From Pectobacterium wasabiae CFBP 3304 (GTDB taxonomy: Bacteria; Pseudomonadota; Gammaproteobacteria; Enterobacterales; Enterobacteriaceae), in the NCBI RefSeq assembly GCF_001742185.1, contig NZ_CP015750.1, forward strand, positions 2,294,001 through 2,358,000: a DNA stretch of 64,000 nt. Reading direction: 5' to 3'. Below are positions 11,217-20,118 of this stretch, piece by piece. Every line of letters begins with the position of its first letter. The stretch's first letter is position 1. Below the pieces are notes generated by a model. The model was not told the origin of the DNA. It ran no database searches and was given only the letters and a program-made list of their open reading frames with translations. The translations under genes and the position numbers were made by a program.

Positions 11217-12215
11217 TTATTCCGAATTATCTGGGTTAATCTCAACCAGCTTTTCTATTCCGCGGTTTAGCGTTTTCAATTTCGGAATAAATACAGTTTT
11301 GATAATGTCATGCGTGACATCGCACGCTTCTTCAAAGAACGCACTGTATTCATCGCGATGACCAACAATATAAAGCGAACGCTTGATATTTAGCTGTTCC
11401 GGCATATGTGTCAGCACTTCTCGTGAGTGCGCAACGGATTGCAGGAAGCTAAGCGGGGTGGTCACCGCCCAACCGATACCGGCTGCCACCATCGATGTTA
11501 AGGTATCCGCATTATCAAATTCGAGCATGTTCGGTACGCGGATATCGATGCGGCGTAGGTAGCGCTCAATCTGCATCCCAATCTGCGAGTTCCGGTTAAA
11601 GCGCACCAGCGGCAGTGCGGCGGAAAGCTCGCGGATGTCCTCAACCGTTTTGATGCGCTTACGGTAATCCGGCGGCGTGATAATAAAATAGCCTTCGGAA
11701 AACAACTGATGGCGCACCACGCTATCGCTGTCGATCAACGGGTCGCTGGTGACGATTAAATCCAGCTCGCGACGCATTAGCGCTTCACCCTGCTGTGGGC
11801 TGAGCCCGGTACGAATCAGCAACTGCGACGAACTCTTCATCAAACTCTTGGTAAACACCGAACCACAGGTGATGGCAAATGAATCCACCAGGCCGATACG
11901 TAAGTCGGGCTTGATGCCTTTTCCCGCTTCCAGCACCTGTGCCTTGAGGTTCGCAATCTCCTCCGTCAGGATTTCTCCCCGGTTTTTCAACGCAATGCCG
12001 TAGGGCGTTAGGACAAAGGGGCGACGAGCCCGATTAACCAATTTGACGCCGAAATCTTCTTCCAACAACCGGATCGTTTGCGAAATGGCAGAAGGAGTCA
12101 GGCCTAACCGCGCAGCGGCTGCCGTCATGCTTCCTGCTTCCGCCATCGTCACAAAAACATAGACGGCGTACATATCGATCGATTTATTGGCGGACACTGT
12201 GCGTTTAACCATGTG
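11217..12215 (-). CDS. LysR-family transcriptional regulator
   Basis: Regulator of 332 residues. The N-terminal winged helix-turn-helix spans about residues 14-72 (AEAGSMTAAAARLGLTPSAI is the typical LysR recognition region), followed by a linker helix and a periplasmic-binding-protein-like effector domain. It stands alone on the minus strand upstream of aspA. The target genes and inducer cannot be told from the sequence. An upstream Met codon at 12233 is possible, but neither start has a strong ribosome-binding site. Confidence 0.85.
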   Translation of the reverse strand, partial: HMVKRTVSANKSIDMYAVYVFVTMAEAGSMTAAAARLGLTPSAISQTIRLLEEDFGVKLVNRARRPFVLTPYGIALKNRGEILTEEIANLKAQVLEAGKGIKPDLRIGLVDSFAITCGSVFTKSLMKSSSQLLIRTGLSPQQGEALMRRELDLIVTSDPLIDSDSVVRHQLFSEGYFIITPPDYRKRIKTVEDIRELSAALPLVRFNRNSQIGMQIERYLRRIDIRVPNMLEFDNADTLTSMVAAGIGWAVTTPLSFLQSVAHSREVLTHMPEQLNIKRSLYIVGHRDEYSAFFEEACDVTHDIIKTVFIPKLKTLNRGIEKLVEINPDNSE

Positions 12216-12504
12216 AGTTTGCCTACGCTGCAAGGTGAATGTCGTCGAAATATGAAGCGTTAGTCTATCTCATCTCGCTGACTACGACCTCGCTAACTGC
12301 TGTCAGAATAGTCGGCTAACTTCAGAAAAAATACAGGTTGCATCACTGATTAATTTTTTCTTATTTCTAGCTTTAGCGGATCTGAAGATGAAATGAATGA
12401 CACGGTATGGCTGCTAGAGTACCGATTGTATTTCTCCCCTTGTTAGTGCTGTTTTTATACATAAATACAAGGGGATTGTGGGTTTTGCTGTTATCAGGCG
12501 TAAA
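12216..12504. other. Intergenic region upstream of the LysR gene
   Basis: About 290 non-coding bases holding the presumed LysR-gene promoter. No recognised site. Confidence 0.4.
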
Positions 12505-12804: not shown

Positions 12805-13146
12805 TTACTGTGTGGTAAGAGGTGCGCGACTCACTGTCGTGACTGTTCGTACATGACGTTCCGCCTGCTCACACATTTCCAGCAGTGCCGGAATCAGGTG
12901 CGCGGTGGCATTGAGGCACGCGCCGAGCTGACTGAGGCTTTCTTGCGGCAGTTCAACGTCATTTTGCAGCGTGTCGCCGAGGTAATGCAGGCCGTGGCAC
13001 AGGCCTTCAACCGATTCGGCGGCAATCGCGCCGAGGTCGCAGAGCTGAACGTCATCTAACTGCGCGAAAGGCAGGCTGGCGATCAGATCGCGGAAAATGG
13101 TAATGGTGCTGTCATCGAGTGTGGCGTGAGTGTCCGTCATGGTCAT
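12805..13146 (-). CDS. Small protein downstream of a P4-like immunity RNA
   Basis: Predicted soluble, acidic, helical protein of 113 residues. It has no cysteine cluster or membrane segment. ATG at 13146 is preceded by AAGGA, and that ribosome-binding site sits in TCTCAAGGA, complementary to the CTTGAGA of the proposed antisense RNA. The position corresponds to genes following seqA in P4-type satellites (kil and small ORFs), and the sequence resembles small proteins I associate with P4-like prophages. The function is unknown. Codons continue upstream to 13287, but that part overlaps the RNA module and is unlikely to be protein. Confidence 0.6.
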   Translation of the reverse strand: MTMTDTHATLDDSTITIFRDLIASLPFAQLDDVQLCDLGAIAAESVEGLCHGLHYLGDTLQNDVELPQESLSQLGACLNATAHLIPALLEMCEQAERHVRTVTTVSRAPLTTQ

Positions 13147-13199
13147 TTTTTCCTTGAGATAATTAAGTCCGCCACCACACAAGGTTCCAAACTTGGGGG
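13147..13199 (-). promoter_or_regulatory. seqA-like target of antisense RNA plus ribosome-binding site
   Basis: The minus strand carries TTTGGAACC (complement of 13183-13192), complementary to GGTTCCAA in the proposed CI/C4 RNA, and TCTCAAG (13153-13159), complementary to CTTGAGA of the same RNA. Pairing here would cover the ribosome-binding site of the downstream small gene. Confidence 0.6.
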
Positions 13200-13265
13200 T
13201 GACACAGACAGGATTGGAACCCCGGCTCTCAAGAAGACCGGTCAACCTTGCGGTTGCCCTGCCTG
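13200..13265 (-). ncRNA. P4 CI / C4-type antisense immunity RNA (candidate)
   Basis: On the minus strand this segment has a CAACC-gcaa-GGTTG hairpin, then CTTGAGA followed by CGGGGTTCCAA (13214-13224). That stretch is complementary to an upstream TTGGAACCCCG (13331-13341) plus TCTCAAG, and to a downstream TTTGGAACC. The order target-RNA-target is that of the seqB-cI-seqA immunity system of satellite phage P4 and the related C4 RNAs of P1/P7. The ends of the RNA are estimates. Confidence 0.65.
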
Positions 13266-13319
13266 CGTCACCGTAAAGAGTGTGCACGCAGCCCCTGAAA
13301 AAACAAAGTGTTTTTCAGT

Positions 13320-13347
13320 CTTGAGAAGTTCGGGGTTCCAAGCCCGG
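13320..13347 (-). promoter_or_regulatory. seqB-like upstream target of the antisense RNA
   Basis: The minus strand reads TTGGAACCCCG followed by ACTTCTCAAG. It is complementary to the candidate RNA at 13214-13224 (11 contiguous bases) and again over seven bases (TCTCAAG against CTTGAGA). In P4, pairing of CI RNA with seqB terminates transcription early. Confidence 0.6.
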
Positions 13348-13505
13348 CTGCGGATGTTGCCGCAGCACAGAGACTCTATTCCAACGGCGAAAAACGTGAA
13401 ATAGGGTGGATGGATTTACAGTGGAGTTACAGCGTGTTTTGGAATGAAGTTCGCAGAAATGGGCGGAAAGCCTCGTCGCTGGCAAACCGCGATACACGGG
13501 GCGAC

Positions 13506-13616: not shown

Positions 13617-13726
13617 GGGGAGGGCGGCATTAAAAGCGTTGATCGTAAAGCTAAGGAGGTGGCCGAACAGCGGCTAAAAGCACTTATGGCTGATGTCAGG
13701 GAGGCTGAACGCTGTAAAAAACGTTA
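13617..13726 (+). pseudogene. Gene remnant, C-terminal fragment
   Basis: An open frame on the plus strand reads a charged helical tail (KAKEVAEQRLKALMADVREA, then ERCKKR and stop). It follows an in-frame stop, has no good start codon, and ends three bases into the stop of the XRE gene on the other strand. It is probably the end of a decayed gene of the same island. The function cannot be told. Confidence 0.3.
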
Positions 13727-14041
13727 GCCTGCTGATTCGATTTCAGTGATGGCGATTGATGCCTGATGCAGGCTTGGCATCGACATCTTCGCTCGGAAAC
13801 CGAGTGCATCCAGCATGTCGAACATGGCATCAATGGTGAAAAGTTCAATCTTGGCATTTTTGAGTTCTGAAACGCGCGACTGGCTGATACCCAGTTTTTC
13901 TGCCGCTTCTTTTTGTGTCCAGCCTTTCTCTTTGATTAAATTAGTAATCATGATCGATAAATCCATTTTCATTGCCATCTTGCTGGCAATCTCAGCGTCA
14001 TGCGTTACATGAAACGGACTTTCGTAGAATTTTAACGCCAT
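13724..14041 (-). CDS. XRE-family helix-turn-helix protein, orphan HigA-like antitoxin
   Basis: DNA-binding protein of 105 residues. The helix-turn-helix spans about residues 40-75 (GWTQKEAAEKLGISQSRVSE). The length and layout are those of HigA/antitoxin-type regulators, whose toxin gene normally lies directly upstream. Here upstream is a palindromic operator and then rtcR, so no toxin partner is present. The start has a strong AAGGAGG. It probably represses itself through the inverted repeat at 14070-14093. Confidence 0.8.
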   Translation of the reverse strand: MALKFYESPFHVTHDAEIASKMAMKMDLSIMITNLIKEKGWTQKEAAEKLGISQSRVSELKNAKIELFTIDAMFDMLDALGFRAKMSMPSLHQASIAITEIESAG

Positions 14042-19326: not shown

Positions 19327-20118
19327 CTACCCCCGTACCAAAAAAATATGCTCACGATGGTATGCCATCTGTGACAGGTCGGGCGGATAAGCGTCTGGCA
19401 GGTGGATTTGTTTGCCTTCGTACTGGGCGAAGTTGACGTCGCTGATGGTGCTTTTCAGCTTTTTAATGCGCGGAGAGAGTATCATTTCCAGCGAGTCGTT
19501 GAAGCTGATCAGCCCCATATCAAAGGCTTTGTCGTGCAGGCTGGATAGGCAGAGGCCGTTGCTGGGGTTGAGGCGGTGTTCTGCTGCCGTTTTCCACGGG
19601 CGAATATGGCTGGCTACCAGCAGCGTGGGTTCTTCCAGCCCGGTGACACAGCAACGTTCGCCATAGTTGCTGAGCACGCGCTTGCGAAATAGCTGTTGCC
19701 CAATGCGCGTTTTCACCTGTGCGAGGCGCTCGCCGCCGTGGTAATTCGGGATGTCGCTCTCGTTGGCTTGGAACAGTGATGGCGATGCTGTCGTTTCCGC
19801 CGCTCCGGTTTCGAGCGATACCATCGCCTGCTGGCACTGCAGTTCAAATAACTCAGGGTTGCTGTCCATCTCCTGCCATAGTGCGCGGTCGGCGTTGGAG
19901 GCCCCACGCAAGCCAGTGCGACCAGAATCGATAATAAACGGATCGAGGCTGGCGAGGTTAACCAACTTCATCGCTAGTGCAGAAGGTGTGCGGTTAAGCA
20001 ACGCCGCGTAGCGAATGATGTCGGGGTTACGCGAATGCAATCTGCCAAACGGCAACTGACTGTAAAGGGTGAAGGCGATCAGCAACTGATCTCGCGTCCA
20101 ATGGTTGGTAGCAGCCAT
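19327..20118 (-). CDS. HNH endonuclease domain protein
   Basis: Protein of 263 residues with a C-terminal HNH_2-type nuclease domain: CCVTG, SHIRPW, NPSNGLCL and the final LHDKAFD around residues 155-205 supply the His/Asn/His metal site. The N-terminal half resembles the DNA- or partner-binding part of restriction-like HNH proteins. It has no methylase partner and lies convergent to the RNA-repair operon with five bases between stops. Its role is unknown; stand-alone defence nuclease is one option. Confidence 0.8.
   Translation of the reverse strand: MAATNHWTRDQLLIAFTLYSQLPFGRLHSRNPDIIRYAALLNRTPSALAMKLVNLASLDPFIIDSGRTGLRGASNADRALWQEMDSNPELFELQCQQAMVSLETGAAETTASPSLFQANESDIPNYHGGERLAQVKTRIGQQLFRKRVLSNYGERCCVTGLEEPTLLVASHIRPWKTAAEHRLNPSNGLCLSSLHDKAFDMGLISFNDSLEMILSPRIKKLKSTISDVNFAQYEGKQIHLPDAYPPDLSQMAYHREHIFLVRG

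Follow-up and report, generated by a model that had tools for sequence, protein, structure and literature searches.

Layout of the C4-ORF113 locus

On the minus strand of the window, i.e., of the whole 64-kb stretch of Pectobacterium wasabiae DNA that was analysed, positions 13421 to 12805 hold in this order a conserved site, a putative promoter, a first target (a1b1), a hairpin, a C4 antisense RNA, a second target (a2b2), and an ORF of 113 residues, here ORF113 (Table 1). The order of target, RNA, and then target had been proposed from the sequence alone, and all three elements indeed lie where that sequence-only reading placed them. The middle segment, given there as 13200-13265, is a real C4 RNA, though the Rfam match, found above its cut-off in the scan which that reading called for, is slightly longer. 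No C4 match was seen in any of the 14 control genomes of the Rfam search.

Table 1. Coordinates of features at and around the locus, along with the basis of each assignment
Feature	Position	Strand	Basis
XRE/HTH_37 gene adjoining rtcR	13724-14041	-	Pfam
Conserved site CTGTAAATCCATCCA	13407-13421	-	Sequence conservation; overlaps an 11-nt direct repeat
Putative promoter, TTTCAC, 17 nt, TAGAGT	13373-13401	-	Read by eye; position conservation
Target 1 region (seqB, a1b1)	13327-13379	-	Rfam c4-a1b1, 44.1 bits, below cut-off of 46.7; fold
isrK match over leader	13298-13366	-	Rfam RF01394, 50.0 bits, cut-off 50
a1/b1 boxes TTGGAACCCCG..TCTCAAG	13341-13320	-	Sequence; b1 extends to 13320
Terminator-like hairpin CTGAAAAACA..TGTTTTTTCAG, after seqB	13295-13318	-	Sequence
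C4 antisense RNA	13192-13278	-	Rfam RF01695, 62.5 bits, cut-off 45
C4 pairing segments, b' loop CTTGAGA and a' CGGGGTTCCAA	within 13233-13211	-	Sequence
Target 2 (seqA), a2 TTTGGAACC at 5' end, from 13191	13151-13191	-	Sequence
b2 box TCTCAAG, overlapping ribosome-binding site	inside 13161-13151	-	Sequence
ORF113, 113-residue helical acidic protein, unnamed family phrog_19484	12805-13146	-	
LysR-family regulator, marking one side of the locus	11217-12233	-	Pfam and synteny

Two loop segments of the C4 RNA are complementary to the targets on both sides, and the extents first reported hold, that is, 11 bases of a and 7 of b upstream (8 of b if the next base is counted) along with 8 of a and 7 of b downstream. 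Complementarity as observed was reached by 6 of 5000 shuffles for target 1 and by 21 of 5000 for target 2, these shuffles consisting in about equal halves of plain permutations and of approximately dinucleotide-keeping ones. The downstream match, as had also been claimed, covers the ribosome-binding site of ORF113, with b2 overlapping the AAGGA which precedes the ATG at 13146. The C4 itself folds well relative to shuffles (z of -4.95); in terms of fold energy neither the terminator-like hairpin (z of 0.32) nor the seqA stretch (z of 0.36) is better than shuffles, and a terminator scan did not list that hairpin. A consensus promoter scan found none at 13373-13401, the first hexamer agreeing with TTGACA at only 2 of 6 positions, and the putative promoter therefore rests on conservation: Its position is kept in 22 Pectobacterium modules as well as in Samsonia, Dickeya, and Prodigiosinella.

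The protein encoded by ORF113 belongs to no Pfam or NCBIfam family above cut-off, matching instead phrog_19484 (unknown function), as do 24 of the 26 family members scanned. An AlphaFold2 model (pLDDT of 81, 26-row alignment) consists of three helices and has no significant match among solved or viral structures. The protein is acidic, with a net charge of -12, and a maximum 19-residue hydropathy of 1.3 gives it no membrane-like segment; that is, it is not the small hydrophobic protein by which a type I toxin would be recognized.

C4 RNAs are best known as parts of phages and satellites. The logic of seqB, cI, and seqA had nonetheless been ascribed to this locus in the absence of a satellite, and this ascription is borne out, as none of 13 P4 proteins has a match in the 64-kb window (tblastn, E of 1e-4), within which the alpha primase, integrase, and capsid-size or polarity genes that would mark a nearby P4-like satellite likewise were not found. 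Five C4 matches are present in this genome as a whole. Of the other four, two are found with P4-type alpha and int genes, one with alpha and vis, and one (L039) with none of these.

Conservation within Pectobacterium and beyond

Among 25 Pectobacterium genomes, one per species, ORF113 or a remnant of it is found at the same place in all 25, always beside the LysR gene and always less than 8 kb, on the same contig, from an AspA-like gene. Within the short loci fetched, the LysR gene could be reached from ORF113 in 17 of 22, the AspA-like gene lying 3 to 6.5 kb off in the other five. The XRE/HTH_37 gene adjoins the module in some strains only. Identity of ORF113 to that of the window is 91-96% in 20 of 23 other Pectobacterium genomes, with G040 as one more. 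Two genomes (G002 and G017) retain only a fragment, along with a paralogue at about 55%, and a third (G023) a truncated copy. G002 and P. peruviense have a deletion scar in common, which brings module positions 13-131 up against about 393-459 inside the ORF. A C4 RNA precedes ORF113 in 22 of the 25, including one, in G019, which at 43.5 bits falls below cut-off. Somewhere in the genome, a C4 above cut-off is found in all 25, for 75 matches in total, 74 of them above cut-off. The simplest reading is that the module is ancestral in Pectobacterium and has been lost three times. ORF113 itself is under purifying selection, with a dN/dS of 0.049 (mean dN of 0.0156, mean dS of 0.3212) as calculated over 231 non-independent pairs.

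Outside of Pectobacterium, relatives were identified, using a profile of the ORF113 family, in 7 of 394 genomes of an order-wide sample and in 62 of 392 genomes, or 29 of 154 genera, of a family-level one. From among the family-profile matches a subset of 28 outside loci (L142-L145, L147, L181, L182, and L184-L204) was scanned using Rfam, and in 19 of these, representing eight genera, a C4 above cut-off lies just upstream on the same strand. The Prodigiosinella copy (L193) has a sub-threshold C4 of 43.2 bits as seen in a longer fetch, L108. The remaining eight are without a C4. Six of these (L144, L145, L147, L190, L194, and L196) are more distant, island-type paralogues of ORF113; the other two, L143 and L203, possess intact ORFs and seqB-like remnants in their leaders. 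Those island paralogues and about-55% paralogues that were tested show no C4 match either. A C4 RNA thus is not always needed, given the intact ORFs of L143 and L203 and the lack of a C4 in the tested paralogues.

Additional observations can be made of these neighbourhoods. Island paralogues (L093:4653-5009, L095, L144, L145, L149, L190, and L194), which are without a C4 match where tested, adjoin a tRNA in L093, L095, and L144 and an integrase in L093, L095, L190, and L194, and as read by eye display a different leader hairpin, CCCGGCAGTG..CCGGG..CTGACCACAACATTA. In two about-55% paralogues (L028 and L031), the ribosome-binding site lies between GGYGA and TCRCC, which by eye form a hairpin that covaries over the two loci. 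CRISPR repeats are found a few hundred bases from the C4-ORF113 modules of L187-L189. Similar frames beginning MAxxNHWxRDQLL.. (HNH-like by eye) are present both in the window, at 19327-20118, and beside the L142 module, at L142:2537-3286.

The conserved site upstream of the putative promoter is nearly invariant, and at one spacing, in the 22 modules and in three other genera. It reads as CTGTAAATCCATCCAC in 18 of the 22 Pectobacterium modules and as CTGTAAATCTATCCAC in the other 4, in either case two letters off CTGT-N8-ACAG, which we take to be the LexA-type consensus. An exact CTGT-N8-ACAG box is found in L143 and L203, which keep their ORFs without a C4, in each case 115 nt upstream of the ORF match. 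Across the 19 C4-bearing outside loci the box is exact in one (L186, a Dickeya locus with A boxes, as defined below), is one letter off, as CTGTAAATNNATCCAG, in ten, and has nothing like it in six. The presence of a LexA-type site before several relatives weakly suggests DNA damage as an inducing signal. As a lead only, the module may once have been opened by DNA damage, and in some relatives perhaps still is, in which case the C4 RNA would serve as a second lock.

Two sets of matched boxes and their exchange

The 22 Pectobacterium modules fall into 13 with A boxes (TCTCAAG, loop CTTGAGA, and TATCTCAAG) and nine with B boxes (TATCTAG, loop GCTAGAT, and TATCTAGC), that is, the three RNA elements change together. 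Loss of complementary segments in close relatives, without compensatory change, had been named as what would speak against a functioning circuit, and upon looking for it the b boxes and loops of the 22 modules were found to keep either the A or the B type except for three single departures. These are one changed base in b1 of G007, a loop two bases shorter in G021, and a decayed loop, GCTAGGT, accompanied by a shortened ORF in G020. Outside of Pectobacterium, the Samsonia copy combines an altered loop with a broken ORF. Retention of the module as a stand-alone regulator, one of two roles that the sequence-only reading put forward, consequently finds strong support, both in conservation at one locus and in the co-ordinated change of three RNA elements.

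Predicted duplex energies of the b boxes (b1, then b2) are -12.8 and -11.3 for the A C4 on its own targets and -6.3 and -9.7 for the B C4 on its own, versus -3.9 and -5.5 for the A C4 on B targets and -6.2 and -4.1 for the B C4 on A targets. For B it therefore is b2 which carries the difference, as b1, at -6.3 versus -6.2, barely discriminates. Energies calculated over whole a plus b targets fail to separate A from B, since the two have the a box in common: For target 1 these are -38.5 (A on A), -26.3 (B on B), -30.5 (A C4 on B), and -25.8 (B C4 on A), and for target 2 they are -26.0, -19.0, -20.9, and -20.9, respectively, such that the B C4 is not predicted to pair better with its own whole target than the A C4 does. 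It may be that A and B alleles do not act on each other, but the common a box and these whole-target energies speak against strict specificity.

The same matching of b boxes is seen more widely. Across eight specificity groups, picked by hand, the mean cognate energy is -11.7 versus -6.1 for b1 and -12.9 versus -6.3 for b2, and upon reassignment of targets cognate pairing was reached by 0 of 20000 permutations for b1 and by 5 of 20000 for b2. For either box, 5 of the 8 C4s pair better with their cognate target than with any other, as do 4 of 11 given wider windows. Taking in turn all 75 C4s of the 25 Pectobacterium genomes, these reduce to 33 distinct loop pairs, and taking one representative per loop pair, b matches have mean lengths of 7.2 and 7.1 bases when cognate versus 4.6 and 4.7 when foreign. 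When compared with representatives of the genus's other C4 types, type L077/L078 excepted, typical A and B loops match foreign b boxes over 6 bases at most and the decayed G020 loop over 7. As B matches its own b1 over 6 bases too, a difference for B cannot be demonstrated by b1 alone.

Other C4 units were noticed as well. At ten loci (L081, L087, L088, L090, L004, L062, L084, L085, L089, and L091) they precede small Ner/SfsB-like HTH genes, a name given by eye, the sequence retrieved there containing no P4 match (via L039 for L004) and the units having a clear a1b1 but not a clear a2b2. The first four of these loci possess two C4s each, in tandem about 640 bp apart and with different boxes. 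In L066, L077, L078, L082, and L083, a C4 is followed by an ORF of a 153-residue family, the fetched stretch again having no P4 protein match.

How the two alleles are distributed bears upon how they have been inherited. On a flanking-gene tree the A and B labels require 8 changes, no fewer than do shuffled labels, and starred branches force at least 3; specificity labels in general follow the protein tree in part (9 changes given a minimum of 6 and a shuffled mean of 10.8, with 12 of 200 shuffles as low), the allele and protein trees being small and unresolved. Sister genomes differ in allele while hardly differing in protein: G021 (A) and G003 (B) have ORFs 97.6% identical and cassettes 81.7% identical, and for G012 (A) versus G018 (B) these values are 97.6% and 82.9%. 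Across genera it is instead the cassettes which are more alike, i.e., 95.1% over ORFs 76.4% alike for the B cassettes of G003 and Dickeya, 97.8% over 91.5% for the A cassettes of the window and Samsonia, and 89.5% over 77.9% for those of the window and Dickeya. Dickeya indeed carries both alleles, B in L181, L182, and L184 and A in L186, with a flanking gene that by eye is common to L181, L184, and L186, not L182. In genus g116, two specificities are found next to a common flanking gene, with L204 and L197 being 96.6% identical over the ORF and 84.6% over the cassette. Lineages appear to have exchanged the RNA recognition sequence more than once, as a matched cassette, while the protein stayed. 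Reasons for this exchange may include immunity, an avoidance of cross-talk with other C4 modules of the same genomes, or plain recombination.

A probable domesticated C4 module and its alternatives

The locus, we believe with some confidence, is a chromosomal, domesticated C4 antisense-RNA module which silences ORF113 and whose recognition cassette has been exchanged between lineages. A single promoter would give rise to one transcript containing seqB, C4, seqA, and ORF113, from which the C4 RNA would be cut out. Its two loop segments would then pair with seqA, covering the ORF113 ribosome-binding site so that no protein is made, while pairing with seqB, in the module's own leader, would limit read-through. 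In P4 and P1, a C4-type RNA covers a downstream start via seqA and pairs with seqB in its own leader, and as the anatomy here is like theirs the same can be expected of this C4. Selection would keep the module at one Pectobacterium locus, with the RNA recognition sequence exchanged as a matched cassette and the protein unchanged.

This reading presumes that the C4 RNA exists as a processed species, that translation is blocked by it, and that the protein of ORF113 has to be silenced. Damaged ORFs accompany weak or altered C4s, as in G019 (43.5 bits), G020 (45.1 bits), and Prodigiosinella (43.2 bits, with a frameshift). In Samsonia the ORF has stops and b' is altered, though the C4 still scores 64.3 bits. 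This association provides indirect support for a C4 that is made and represses; L143 and L203, in which the ORF is kept in the absence of a C4, speak against it.

The same association could be read as indicating something stronger, that ORF113 is harmful, with the C4 RNA as its antidote and the cassette kept by addiction, as in a type I toxin-antitoxin pair. Consistent with such a pair, a C4 or another structured leader precedes the gene in those layouts that were inspected by eye, and the two relatives which have lost their C4 (L143 and L203) both have the exact CTGT-N8-ACAG box. Classic type I toxins are membrane-like, however, rather than acidic, whereas ORF113, given its charge and hydropathy, resembles them in neither respect, and loss from 3 of 25 genomes shows that the module can be shed. 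A toxin-antitoxin-like pair accordingly strikes us as possible but doubtful.

Somewhat more doubtful still is a broader conjecture concerning the fixed chromosomal C4-ORF113 locus of Enterobacteriaceae, by which a limited number of matched alleles would be common to several genera and maintained by selection, i.e., as trans-species polymorphism, the RNA serving as a self versus non-self tag against foreign nucleic acid that bears such a module, with ORF113 as effector.

Immunity against incoming satellites was the other role initially put forward. The resident C4 RNA would act in trans on invading satellites or phages having the same boxes, with rare alleles protecting against common invaders. 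The anatomy would work like that of P4 cI, the alleles are scattered, common to several genera, and switch as matched sets, as frequency-dependent selection would predict, and some relatives (L187-L189) lie near CRISPR repeats. Invaders having matching boxes nevertheless were not found. The exact joint A target is present in 15 of the 25 genomes, at the 13 A modules and at four other places, and the exact joint B pattern is present in 10, at the nine B modules and at one other place, with none of these five unrelated places near a C4 match. In IMG/VR, the joint A target turned up as one recurring sequence without a C4 match and the joint B target turned up nothing, while the b boxes of those other C4 types of the genus that were compared match typical A or B loops over at most 6 bases. 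Exclusion could explain such absence, yet B genomes also are without an A element. As no element with a matching joint target was found, immunity is unsupported and we view it as unlikely. Least credible, indeed very improbable, is that the locus is a neutral remnant of a lost P4-like satellite, drifting with its neighbourhood, for while C4 RNAs are typically phage- or satellite-borne, three genomes have lost this one, and recombination alone could scatter the alleles, the low dN/dS, the retention of C4 with ORF in 22 of 25 genomes, the matched change of three elements, and the recurrence of the same protein family with C4 in other genera all argue otherwise.

An RNA known as a phage or satellite part is found here as a conserved chromosomal locus of plant-associated bacteria, tied across nine or more genera to one and the same orphan family of proteins. 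It supplies a natural series of antisense alleles in which the evolution of C4 specificity can be followed, and prompts one to ask, in a testable manner, which selective force favours diverse alleles of a regulatory RNA that has no attached phage.

Among known systems, the C4-icd-ant operon (immI) of phages P1 and P7 employs a C4 RNA to block translation of the first downstream ORF. The likeness is one of a C4 before a first downstream ORF in both. The locus would seem to differ in its genes, with ORF113 matching only phrog_19484 and being followed by that of a LysR regulator. A second comparison is with the IsrK of Salmonella Gifsy-1 (RF01394), whose cut-off the leader of the locus reaches exactly, at 50.0 bits. 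Phage P4, used as an Rfam control, scores 74.9 bits with the C4 model and 60.8 with the isrK model, and since P4 seqB thus also matches isrK, indeed outscoring the leader of the locus, the match here signifies a seqB-type (a1b1-type) leader rather than an IsrK orthologue. Closest is the immunity region of P4 itself, in which seqB, cI RNA, seqA, and a first small ORF follow in the same order, with the same two Rfam families, C4 and isrK, and in which the b2 box likewise lies, by sequence, over the first downstream ribosome-binding site. Unlike P4, the window contains no P4 protein match, the downstream gene is by eye of another kind, and the module occupies a fixed chromosomal locus.
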